Assembly (NCBI GenBank): GCA_902783895.1
Contig: CACZST010000012.1
Location: 1-47,321, forward strand
Direction: 5' to 3'
Source of the DNA: an uncultured Erysipelotrichaceae bacterium
GTDB taxonomy: Bacteria > Bacillota_I > Bacilli_A > RF39 > UBA660
Length of the DNA stretch: 47,321 nt
Under the pieces are notes generated by a model. It saw only the letters and a list, made by a program, of their open reading frames with translations. It was not told the origin of the DNA and searched no databases. Within the stretch, counting starts at the first letter, position 1. Each line of letters starts with the position of its first letter. Of this stretch, positions 35,773 to 40,101 are shown piece after piece. Both the position numbers and the translations under genes were made by a program.

Positions 35773-36708
35773 TTATTTTTCTTTTTCATAGCTAATATAT
35801 TTTGAATTATCAAAAGCTATTATTTGCATAGTTATATATGGGAAGAGGATACTACATACTGCAAATGCGGTACTCTTTCCAAATCTTTTTGCTAATTTAT
35901 AAGATAGTATCAACATAAATACAATATTAATTGGTGTAATTAATAATAATATAAATAACCAGCCTTTATTGAAGGCAATTTTTGACAAACAGTAGTAGTT
36001 ATAAAATGGTATCAATGATTTCCATCCTTTTATCCCCGCTTTTACGAATATCTTCCACATTACAACAATTGTTAATATAAATATAACAATAGCAATAGCT
36101 ATAATAACGTATAAAATATTTGATGGATACCCAAATCCTAATTCCTCCACCATTGCCTTAATTTCATTTTTATATTGAGATGACCCAGTAGCTGCAAAAA
36201 TTGTATTACCGTTTTTAACAACTACAAAATAACTCCCACCATTTTCAAGTGAATAATAATTATAATTCATCAAATCAAACGTAACAGTACTAATTGATCC
36301 GTTCTTTTTTTGGGAATTAATTTGATAATATAAACTATTAAACACTTTACTTGCATTACTATTATTATAACCAATGATATAATGAAGGCCTAAATTTTTA
36401 CCATTAGTTGTGGCTAAATCATAAACTTTTACATCTGTATTTTTTACATCTTCTACTGTATAGTTTTTACTTTGAACTAAATTCCTAAACTCGTCTTGTG
36501 TAGCATACTTTTTATCAAAATAGCTACTATATCCTAAAACAACTAAAACAGATAAAATTATTTCTATTGCAAAAATTGTAAATAATTTTTTCTTTGTTTT
36601 TTGATCATTTTTCACAATATCTTTTTCATTATTTACTACTCTTTCATCGCAATAAGAACAAAATTTATCACTTTTATTTATTTTATTTCCACATTTATCA
36701 CACTTCAT
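35773..36708 (-). CDS. zinc-ribbon membrane protein with DUF5684-like C-terminus
   Basis: A 311-residue protein. An N-terminal zinc ribbon (MKCDKCGNKINKSDKFCSYC, four Cys) lies in the cytoplasm, then one membrane helix (about 43-63), an extracytoplasmic domain of about 130 residues, and several helices. The C-terminal part has GIKGWKSLIPFYNYYCL and AKRFGKSTAFAVCSILFPY, which resembles DUF5684 modules often fused to other membrane proteins. Function unknown. It has its own promoter with an extended -10 and paired direct repeats upstream that also occur before the CYTH gene, which suggests common control with that operon. Confidence 0.78.
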   Translation of the reverse strand: MKCDKCGNKINKSDKFCSYCDERVVNNEKDIVKNDQKTKKKLFTIFAIEIILSVLVVLGYSSYFDKKYATQDEFRNLVQSKNYTVEDVKNTDVKVYDLATTNGKNLGLHYIIGYNNSNASKVFNSLYYQINSQKKNGSISTVTFDLMNYNYYSLENGGSYFVVVKNGNTIFAATGSSQYKNEIKAMVEELGFGYPSNILYVIIAIAIVIFILTIVVMWKIFVKAGIKGWKSLIPFYNYYCLSKIAFNKGWLFILLLITPINIVFMLILSYKLAKRFGKSTAFAVCSILFPYITMQIIAFDNSKYISYEKEK

Positions 36709-36733: not shown

Positions 36734-36804
36734 AGTATATCACAAAAAAATTATTTTTTTTCGAACTATGTCTGAATGTACGAGTTTTTTGTCTGAACGT
36801 ACTA
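36734..36804 (-). promoter_or_regulatory. promoter with paired activator-like repeats (zinc-ribbon gene)
   Basis: Extended -10 TGATATACT (minus strand, TATACT at 36734-36739). Upstream are two direct copies of GTACrTTCAGAC, at 36770-36782 and 36791-36802, 21 bp apart. The same arrangement is found at 39159-39226. Confidence 0.65.
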
Positions 36805-36820
36805 TTTTTATATAAAAACA

Positions 36821-36851
36821 ATAAAAAATAACTAAAAAATAATTAGTTATT
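36821..36851 (-). terminator. terminator of the CYTH-hydrolase-kinase operon
   Basis: A 9-bp stem AATAACTAA/TTAGTTATT with a 7-nt loop contains part of the stop codon and is followed by TTTTATTG on the minus strand. Confidence 0.65.
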
Positions 36852-37884
36852 AACATTCAATTTCTAGTAATTTTTCTGAAATTTTTTTAGCATTTTTGAT
36901 TAAATATCTACAGATGTTTGTTCTTTCTTGACCGAAATGAAGTAAATCAATATTACCGTTTTTTAAATATTCTTTGTAGCCATATGTGCTAGATAAAACT
37001 TGAACTAGATAAATATATGGTAAATATTTTAAATCTTCTTTTGTAAGTTTTGAATATTTTAAGTATTCTTTCACATACATAACTAAGTTATCTATATTAA
37101 AGTTACCATTTTTACAATCTTTATCAATATAATTATATGATCTTGCGATTTCCCACACTATTGGCATTTCCCCTGCACTTACAAAATCAATTATGGATTT
37201 TATTTTACCGTTTGTATCATAGATAAACTGTAATACATTATAATCTCCATGTGTTTTTTTAATTGTAACATTTGTTGCTTTTTTATAGGTTCCGTCTTTT
37301 TTTATTTGTTTTAACATTTCTATTTTATCATTTAAATCTTTTATTATTTCTTTACCATGTATTATATCTTCTTTTGCTAATGGTATTAGATTTTCATGTT
37401 TAATTATACTTTTGTCAATTATTTCATCTGAGGTATATTTTTCTATACTACAGGTAAACATGTCATCATATGGATATTCTTCTAAATAATTAACAATTAT
37501 TCCTAAATATTTTGCTGATTCTAGTAATTGCTTTTTATCACCACTATAATTTTTCTTAGTTTCACCTTCAATAAATTTTTGTATAATTACCGTTTTGTCA
37601 TTATATTCAAAATATTGTTTTCCATCTAAACACATTACGTATTCAGGAACTGATAGTCCTTTATTTCTTAAAAAGTTTATAATATTAATTTCTTTAAGAA
37701 TTGTTTTCCCACTAAATTTGGATTGAAATTCTTTTAAAATATATTTATTATTGTCATTGGAAATTAATTTATATATATTAGCACTTCCTCCATTTATAAT
37801 TTCAATATCCTTTATTTCAAGCCCATAATGTTTTTTTACTTCTTCTTTTATTTTATCTTCAGTAAATTTCGTTTTTTCTATCAT
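36850..37884 (-). CDS. aminoglycoside-phosphotransferase-fold (APH) kinase-like protein
   Basis: A 344-residue soluble kinase-like protein. The N-lobe has GGSANIYKLIS and KYILKEFQSK (ATP-binding Lys), and EINIINFLRNKGL. The C-lobe has the catalytic KKTHGDYNVLQF loop and the metal-binding IIDFVSAG. Such proteins phosphorylate small molecules such as homoserine, choline, thiamine or sugars; I cannot name the substrate and do not infer drug resistance. Its ATG overlaps the stop of the alpha/beta hydrolase gene by 4 nt, with the AGGAGG site inside that gene's last codons. It is third in the CYTH-hydrolase-kinase operon. Confidence 0.87.
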   Translation of the reverse strand: MIEKTKFTEDKIKEEVKKHYGLEIKDIEIINGGSANIYKLISNDNNKYILKEFQSKFSGKTILKEINIINFLRNKGLSVPEYVMCLDGKQYFEYNDKTVIIQKFIEGETKKNYSGDKKQLLESAKYLGIIVNYLEEYPYDDMFTCSIEKYTSDEIIDKSIIKHENLIPLAKEDIIHGKEIIKDLNDKIEMLKQIKKDGTYKKATNVTIKKTHGDYNVLQFIYDTNGKIKSIIDFVSAGEMPIVWEIARSYNYIDKDCKNGNFNIDNLVMYVKEYLKYSKLTKEDLKYLPYIYLVQVLSSTYGYKEYLKNGNIDLLHFGQERTNICRYLIKNAKKISEKLLEIEC

Positions 37885-38612
37885 AACTTCCCTCCTTTTA
37901 AAAATTCAACTATTTTATTATTTAATTTTTCTCTTGAATTATTTATTTTAAAATTGTGGTCTGCACCATCAATTTCATATAAGTTAAAGTGAAATTTATT
38001 ACATAGTTTTTTAACATTATCTAAGGATGCGATTTTATCTTCGGTTCCATGAATAAATAAAATATTACTTTTATTTATATAGGTTATATCTGATAGATTA
38101 TGTTCTATTTCATCTAAATCATCGAGTAACTTTACAGGAAGTTTTTTCCCATAACCTACATAAAAGTATTTGTCAGTATTTTTAGGATTTGAAAGAAAAT
38201 CGTCGGTCATTTTCTTTTTATTTTTAAGTGGTAAACACTGAAAAATCACCTTATCTACTGATGGTGATTTTTCTTTTATATATGTATATAAATATAATGA
38301 CCCTAAGCTTTTTCCAATAAAACTAATTTTAATATCCTTATAACTATTCTTCGCATACTTATATACATTATCAATTGTCTTTAAACAATTTTTAACTGTA
38401 TATGTTGTATACTTGTTTTTTCTTTCTCCATGATATGGAAAATCAAATGAAATTAATCCGATTTTTTCTTTTATTAATCTTTCTTCTAATGGATGATAAA
38501 AGTTTTTATTACCACCTAGACCATGACATAGTATAACTAACCTATCCATATCTTTTGGGATAATTTCACATATAGGAGTTCTATCTTTTAAAATTTTAGT
38601 ATTGATATCCAT
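37881..38612 (-). CDS. alpha/beta hydrolase
   Basis: A 243-residue soluble hydrolase. The oxyanion segment CHGLGGNK (about 29-36), the nucleophile elbow GKSLGS with S102, LFIHGTEDK (acid) and GADHNF (catalytic His) are all present, so it is probably active as an esterase, thioesterase or lipase-like enzyme. The FDFPYHGERKN loop fits the BAAT/DLH-like group. It is the middle gene of an operon between CYTH and APH-fold proteins. A role on a shared small-molecule substrate is a guess from context. Confidence 0.88.
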   Translation of the reverse strand: MDINTKILKDRTPICEIIPKDMDRLVILCHGLGGNKNFYHPLEERLIKEKIGLISFDFPYHGERKNKYTTYTVKNCLKTIDNVYKYAKNSYKDIKISFIGKSLGSLYLYTYIKEKSPSVDKVIFQCLPLKNKKKMTDDFLSNPKNTDKYFYVGYGKKLPVKLLDDLDEIEHNLSDITYINKSNILFIHGTEDKIASLDNVKKLCNKFHFNLYEIDGADHNFKINNSREKLNNKIVEFLKGGKL

Positions 38613-38628
38613 TTAGATACCTCTTTAT

Positions 38629-39108
38629 TTAAATTTTTTCGTGAATAGTTTTTGAGATTATATCATAGGTTTTATCTACGGCTTCTTTCTCACCTTCGAT
38701 AGCTACTACAAACATTTTTTCTGGAGAAGAATAATCATCTATTTCAAATTTTACAGTTCCTTTTTCATAAACTACTCTTTTTCTATCTAGATGTTTCTTT
38801 TTTTTATAACCTAAAATATCCAATATTGAATTAATTGATTCTTTATTATCATCTGTTATTATTAATGGTTTAGTTTCTCTACAATTTTTTAATATTTCAT
38901 CTGAATCGTTTTCATCTTTAAAATCTAATGATTTTATTATTTTATCATTTGATTTTTTAGTAGTGATGCGGGCTAAAATCTTATTGTTACTTGTAAATAA
39001 CTCACGTATTTGGGAAGTCTCAGATGTTTTTTTATATCCATTTTCTTCACAATATTTTATATATGGATCTAAGCTTTTAACTTTAAAACTATATTCATAT
39101 TCTTTCAT
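38629..39108 (-). CDS. CYTH-domain protein (class IV adenylyl cyclase/thiamine-triphosphatase fold)
   Basis: A 159-residue protein that looks like one CYTH domain. The start KEYEYSFKV is a form of the ExExK signature; later KHLDRKRVVYEKGTVKFEID and VVAIEGE follow the typical tunnel strands. CYTH proteins act on triphosphates (inorganic triphosphate, ThTP) or, rarely, make cAMP; the substrate cannot be read. The signature is slightly degenerate (F between E and K). AAGGAG is 7 nt before the ATG. It is the first gene of a three-gene operon with a promoter that carries paired repeats. Confidence 0.78.
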   Translation of the reverse strand: MKEYEYSFKVKSLDPYIKYCEENGYKKTSETSQIRELFTSNNKILARITTKKSNDKIIKSLDFKDENDSDEILKNCRETKPLIITDDNKESINSILDILGYKKKKHLDRKRVVYEKGTVKFEIDDYSSPEKMFVVAIEGEKEAVDKTYDIISKTIHEKI

Positions 39109-39158
39109 GTTTTACTCCTTCTTTGTTTGATTTATATTATTTTTCAAACATTGTTTTC

Positions 39159-39226
39159 ATTATATCACAAAAAGTAAGACTATTTTTAAATATTGTTTGA
39201 ATGCATGATTTTTTGTCTAAATGTAT
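39159..39226 (-). promoter_or_regulatory. promoter with paired activator-like repeats (CYTH operon)
   Basis: Extended -10 TGATATAAT (TATAAT at 39159-39164, minus strand), preceded by TTTTTG as at 36734. Two degenerate copies of rTACATTCAGACA lie at about 39195-39207 and 39215-39226, 20 bp apart. The distance from -10 to the first copy (31 bp) equals that at the zinc-ribbon promoter. Confidence 0.62.
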
Positions 39227-39312: not shown

Positions 39313-40101
39313 CTAATTAATTTTATCTTTTACATATTTTTTTGTCATACTATATATAGTATTTGTCTGAATGTTTTGAGGCATTAATTTATATATTTTA
39401 TCTATATAATCATTTTCATAAATTATTTTTAAGCTTTCTTTATGATTTATATCTGATGTGATAAAACCAAGAGCTCTTACCTTTTTATCTAAGACTGTTT
39501 TTAACAAATTATTATCAACTGTTTTTCTTTGAATAATTAGGTTATAAACATCATCAGAAATAACTTCTTTATTTTCTTTATTTGAATAAAATATTGCCTG
39601 CTCTTTTGTAGGAATATTTGGAATTATATCAACCATACTTTTGAAAAAATCTATTTTATCGGCATCTCTTAAAATGGTTGAAAAAATAAATTCTTTTTCG
39701 TTTAAATTATCTGGCAGGTCTTTTTTATTATGAAGTGATACTGCCTTTAATATTAATTTTTGTTCTTCCTCATTATAATTTGATAAAATGTTTTCTTTTT
39801 CTATTATTTTTGCACTTAATAAAGCATGATTTTCTGATAATAAATCGTCATATGTTTTGTATTTAATAAATTGTGTAAATCTTCCTATATCATGAATAAG
39901 TGACATTGTTTTTATTAATGATATATCATGTTCATTTAAATTTAGTGATTTTCCTATTCGTACAGAAAGATTAGCAACTCTATAACTATGATCAATTTTT
40001 CTTTTTATATGAATATATTCCGTTTCACTTTTTGCAGTTTCTAAAATTTTTTTTGTATATTTTTTAAAAAAATCATCTATATTTATTATGCTTTCAATCA
40101 T
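39313..40101 (-). CDS. HD-domain phosphohydrolase
   Basis: A 262-residue protein. Metal-binding residues of the HD superfamily are visible: H38 (HSYRVANL), H70-D71 (LIHDIGRF), then ENHALLSAKII and a later DADKIDFF. These proteins hydrolyse phosphoester bonds in nucleotides or related molecules; no exact substrate can be given. ATG 40101 follows AAGGGA by about 9 nt. It is followed by a strong terminator, so it is separate from the CYTH operon, but its upstream region holds a reversed copy of the same motif. Confidence 0.88.
   Translation of the reverse strand: MIESIINIDDFFKKYTKKILETAKSETEYIHIKRKIDHSYRVANLSVRIGKSLNLNEHDISLIKTMSLIHDIGRFTQFIKYKTYDDLLSENHALLSAKIIEKENILSNYNEEEQKLILKAVSLHNKKDLPDNLNEKEFIFSTILRDADKIDFFKSMVDIIPNIPTKEQAIFYSNKENKEVISDDVYNLIIQRKTVDNNLLKTVLDKKVRALGFITSDINHKESLKIIYENDYIDKIYKLMPQNIQTNTIYSMTKKYVKDKIN

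Follow-up and report, generated by a model that had tools for sequence, protein, structure and literature searches.

In the agr system of Staphylococcus aureus, AgrB, AgrD, AgrC and AgrA are encoded in one locus, and AgrA acts through direct repeats that lie between the divergent promoters P2 and P3, upstream of weak promoters, with RNAIII as the divergent partner (PMC4227749). In Clostridioides difficile, the LytTR regulator RgaR controls a small regulon, comprising the agrBD genes of Agr1 and a few unlinked promoters, of which the main target is the small RNA spoZ; the critical bases of its VirR-like sites fall at -51 and -72, 21 bp apart, and RgaRS is encoded outside the agr1 locus (PMC10602386). 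LytTR regulatory systems such as HdrR/BrsR are membrane-inhibitor systems and not agr systems, and their operators consist of 9-bp direct repeats with the core ACCnCTTAn, separated by spacers of 11–13 bp; they lie directly ahead of a weak -35, with a marked preference for a distance of 10 bp, and are often followed by an extended -10 such as TGATATAGT (PMC6193735). We describe here two promoters of an uncultured Erysipelotrichaceae bacterium whose paired repeats are, very probably, operators for the bacterium's own AgrA-type LytTR response regulator of agr quorum sensing.

The stretch analysed (the window, 47,321 nt in all) contains two intergenic promoters on the minus strand, each with a direct repeat close to RCRTTYARaCA that was located from the sequence and by a matrix scan. 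At site 1, the promoter-distal copy TACGTTCAGACA occupies positions 36790–36801 and the promoter-proximal copy TACATTCAGACA positions 36769–36780, an offset of 21 bp with a 12-bp spacer. At site 2 the upstream copy TACATTTAGACA (39214–39225) and the second copy TGCATTCAAACA (39194–39205) are offset by 20 bp and separated by 11 bp. The -10 hexamers, likewise on the minus strand, are TATACT at site 1 (36734–36739) and TATAAT at site 2 (39159–39164), each with an extended TGTGA in front; the extended -10 boxes are TTTTTTTGTGATATACT and TTTTTGTGATATAAT, respectively, the extended -10 stretches of the two promoters read TGTGATATACT and TGTGATATAAT, and neither promoter has a recognisable -35. In both cases exactly 29 nt separate the -10 hexamer from the last A of the second ACA. 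If transcription is assumed to start some 7 nt beyond the -10, the repeat copies are centred near -49 and -70. An earlier sequence-only reading of this DNA had reported extended -10 promoters with paired direct repeats 20–21 bp apart, both of which are present, and had interpreted positions near -49 and -70 as an activator-type layout, an assignment which the geometry favours. The constant distance to the -10 that it described also holds, but its figure of 31 bp was counted from another edge of the motif and is 29 nt as measured here. A lone perfect half-site, ACATTCAGACA, lies at 39364–39374, inside the 3' end of an HD-domain gene and about 150 bp upstream of site 2; with its best partner it scores 9.5 bits as a pair.

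Both sites have the spacing of LytTR operators, with direct repeats of about 9 bp lying 11–13 bp apart, and also their placement, since the repeats end some 10 bp before a weak -35 position and the -10 follows at a fixed distance, 32 nt after the 9-mer. They share with RgaR sites the 21-bp separation (PMC10602386), and with HdrR/BrsR-type operators the 9-bp repeats just upstream of a weak -35 and the extended -10 (PMC6193735). The sequence of the repeat, RCRTTYAR followed by nCA, differs from the HdrR/BrsR core and also from the S. aureus repeat (PMC4227749).

A complete agr locus, encoding AgrA, AgrC, AgrB and AgrD, is present in the same genome, and its AgrA-like regulator is the one LytTR protein detectable in the assembly, which is 78% complete; several other genomes of the genus encode two. 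This regulator has a receiver domain (PF00072) and a LytTR domain (PF04397), both over cut-off, and its best NCBIfam match is AgrA, although the score is far below the equivalog cut-off of that model. Among solved structures, a profile built from its orthologues picks out ComE and AgrA, and the structure predicted for it (mean pLDDT 81.6) matches that of full-length ComE with an E-value of 3.5e-14 and the LytTR domain of AgrA to within 1.4–1.6 A. AgrC, encoded next to agrA, is a membrane sensor kinase of the GHKL type (PF14501, over cut-off) with a hydrophobic N-terminal half. AgrB, the peptide-processing protease (PF04647, 119 bits), is encoded beside agrC and agrA, and an AgrB gene is found in 42 of the 44 genus genomes. 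Behind agrB lies the gene for AgrD, a 39-aa peptide, MSFIASALATVGSFFAGLGSVGCHFMWIEEPECPKSLIK, which scores 21.3 bits with TIGR04223 against a cut-off of 19 and has the expected form, a Cys ring core followed by an acidic tail; across the genus the AgrD series shows a variable core and then a near-constant tail. In one AgrD of the genus (agr locus of genome G015, L096) Ser replaces the ring Cys, GSWIFWWDEPKCPKSLIK, which suggests that a lactone rather than a thiolactone peptide would be made. In the literature searched we found nothing on agr in this genus.

The repeat pair recurs at this locus. In the present genome the intergenic region between agrB and a cold-shock gene contains it twice, in divergent orientation. 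The pair facing agrB scores 29.0 bits, has a -10 at 30 nt, and is strong in this genome only, while nearly every genus genome examined shows synteny over the region itself, and in most of them alignment shows the pair facing the cold-shock gene to be kept. A search for the pair in 44 genomes of the genus gave 15 matches against none for a reversed control pattern, and a second pattern gave 32 against three; most of these matches sit between the AgrB gene and the divergent cold-shock gene, next to agrC and agrA. In an automatic scan, 27 of 39 such regions had their -10 at the spacing seen in the window, 29 nt, and in five of the 39 only weak pairs were present.

The leader of the cold-shock gene beside agr is long and contains a second conserved promoter of vegetative type, which in many species reads TTGAAA-18-TATACT (L043 1159–1560, G000:C24; L085–L124). 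It carries two TGTCG boxes, with the LytTR promoter further upstream. RNAalifold detected no conserved structure that might be a counterpart of RNAIII in this leader, a weak negative given that it comes from one gappy alignment, and a comparison with Rfam gave no match near threshold.

To score the window sites, a weight matrix was built from the agr/cold-shock sites of other species, with this genome left out, and the window sites took no part in training; the values obtained for the training species' own sites, being partly circular, were kept out of the evidence. Over the whole window, sites 1 and 2 rank first and second with 28.0 and 25.4 bits, and the next position reaches 12.5 bits. In 5 Mb of simulated first-order sequence, read on one strand, at most three positions per offset attained 18 bits. 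The two window sites thus stand far above chance, which is a very unlikely source for them. Genome-wide counts were obtained by pattern searches. If one mismatch at most is allowed, the paired pattern occurs five times in the 1.03-Mb assembly: at the two window sites, at the two agr sites, and at C14:25743, which precedes the gene for a 1325-aa secreted DNRLRE/YD-repeat (RHS-type) protein (L169 1710–5687, G000:C14). All five strong sites lie upstream of genes. The sequence-only reading had postulated a shared regulon and proposed a genome-wide scan, in which random scatter of the pairs would have told against it; no scatter was seen, and the small number of strong pairs in the genome supports such a regulon as a prediction. 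Elsewhere in the genus, two extra sites in G018 and G023 (L170, L171) score 24–28 bits but have no -10 at 29 nt. A weaker pair in G003 (20.8 bits), with a -10-like TACTAT at 29 nt, precedes a gene for a secreted Cys-rich protein (L069 1501–2261); neither agrB nor LytTR genes were detected in G003, an assembly 84% complete from which agr may simply be missing.

The predicted target of site 1 is a minus-strand gene at 35773–36708 for a 311-aa zinc-ribbon membrane protein with a C-terminal DUF5684. Site 2 precedes a putative minus-strand operon of three genes, encoding a 159-aa CYTH-like protein (38629–39108), a 243-aa alpha/beta hydrolase (37881–38612) and a 344-aa APH-type phosphotransferase (36850–37884). 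The label CYTH, given by the sequence-only reading, could not be confirmed, as the 159-aa protein matched no Pfam or NCBIfam family. The same reading had suggested that co-regulation be checked by conservation upstream of orthologues, and here the outcome went against it: a CYTH-like orthologue was found in five further genomes of the genus and a zinc-ribbon orthologue in one, and all of these lack the repeat pair upstream. The window targets would therefore be lineage-specific. Targets outside agr can nonetheless be conserved, because in the genomes of three relatives (L042, L044, L075/L172) the pair, with a -10 at 29–30 nt, precedes a different zinc-ribbon gene. In G048, G018 and G023 the gene behind the pair encodes a different zinc-ribbon membrane protein and is followed by a glycosyltransferase-like gene (L172 2203–3808, L173 3024–4631, L044 1579–3030), which makes zinc-ribbon membrane proteins a recurring class of predicted agr target.

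The origin of site 1 can be traced further. Over the block from 36800 to 36764, 36 of 37 nt agree with the agr/cold-shock operator, and the agreement extends to spacer bases that the genus does not conserve; for the 14 non-core positions of this block, the genus column frequencies multiply to about 1e-7. The C14 site further shares with the agr region 39 of the 60 nt that precede its pair, and it retains a weaker divergent pair. Site 2 shows no sign of copying. Given the near-identity of site 1 to the agr operator, operator copying is the simplest reading for site 1 and the C14 site, and a likely one. The doubt that the sequence-only reading had cast on recent duplication was thus justified as between the two window promoters, but not for site 1 in relation to the agr/cold-shock operator.

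Assignment of the sites to the LytTR (AgrA-type) class follows from the repeat, its 11–12-bp spacer, the distance to the -10 and the conserved place at the agr locus, and the LytTR protein predicted to bind them is connected with this type of site through the genomic linkage of the repeat pair to the one LytTR gene detected. In the mechanism proposed, AgrB would turn AgrD into a cyclic peptide, the presumed signal, which on accumulation would activate the kinase AgrC, and AgrC would in turn phosphorylate AgrA. Two AgrA molecules would then occupy the two repeat copies, with centres near -49 and -70, on one face of the helix, and bring in RNA polymerase at promoters where an extended -10 is present and a usable -35 is lacking; for the direction of regulation we infer activation rather than repression. 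The genes served in the window would be the zinc-ribbon/DUF5684 gene and the CYTH-like/hydrolase/phosphotransferase genes, the latter presumably transcribed as an operon, so that agr-type signalling between cells most likely switches on both sets. Further predicted operators lie in both directions between agrB and the cold-shock gene and before the gene for the RHS-repeat secreted protein. A divergent operator at agrB and the cold-shock gene implies self-amplification, and a predicted operator facing agrB, of the kind expected for peptide-dependent autoinduction, is present in this genome.

Since the assembly is 78% complete and several relatives hold two LytTR proteins, it is possible that the sites are used by a second LytTR regulator missing from the assembly, the agr locus being another of its targets or just a neighbour. 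We regard this as unlikely: most of the genus keeps the agr operator next to agrAC, and a matrix derived from agr-locus sites alone fits the window sites. Still less probable is binding by a direct-repeat activator of another family. The sequence-only reading had named OmpR-family and XRE proteins as candidates, and some OmpR-family proteins do bind direct repeats upstream of promoters. OmpR-type half-sites are, however, usually about 10–11 bp apart, whereas here the copies are offset by 20 or 21 bp and none lies in between, so the sites do not have the half-site spacing of an OmpR/PhoB-type operator. Neither candidate family finds support; the repeat geometry and the conserved site at the agr locus, where the locus's own regulator is a LytTR protein, both indicate that class instead.

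The near-identity of site 1 to the agr/cold-shock operator, and the look of the C14 site, as if a longer stretch of the agr intergenic region had been copied there, could also be taken to mean that site 1 is a recent copy without function and site 2 a coincidence. This, too, is most improbable. At site 1 the identity stops shortly past the operator and the promoter spacing is nonetheless kept; site 2 retains both the motif and the 29-nt spacing although it is no recent copy; and the simulated background makes chance very unlikely. Control by the bacterium's own AgrA therefore remains the preferred explanation of both window sites.

Set beside the described systems, the locus resembles S. aureus agr in that all four agr genes lie together and direct repeats upstream of weak promoters are found between divergent promoters. 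It differs in that the divergent partner is a cold-shock gene instead of RNAIII, agrAC forms a separate unit convergent with agrBD, and the predicted targets are zinc-ribbon, CYTH-like and RHS proteins (PMC4227749). The predicted regulon, agrBD together with a few unlinked promoters, is small, as is that of RgaR, although here the LytTR regulator is encoded within the agr locus (PMC10602386). The system is of a well-known kind, and its mildly unusual features are the cold-shock partner and the apparent operator copying. A broader proposal, to which we give somewhat less than even credence, is that the quorum-sensing regulon of this lineage grows by the copying of an agr operator block in front of new genes, as at site 1 and the RHS locus, and that throughout the genus the operator has the cold-shock gene, and not an RNAIII-like RNA, as its conserved partner.

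For an uncultured gut genus, these results place genes of unknown role in a small regulon, with a predicted regulator and a signal system. They also provide a sharp, genus-wide operator model, with which agr targets should be predictable from sequence alone. The conserved arrangement suggests that the cold-shock gene is a core neighbour of quorum sensing in this genus, and the shared operator blocks suggest that new targets are recruited to it by operator copying.
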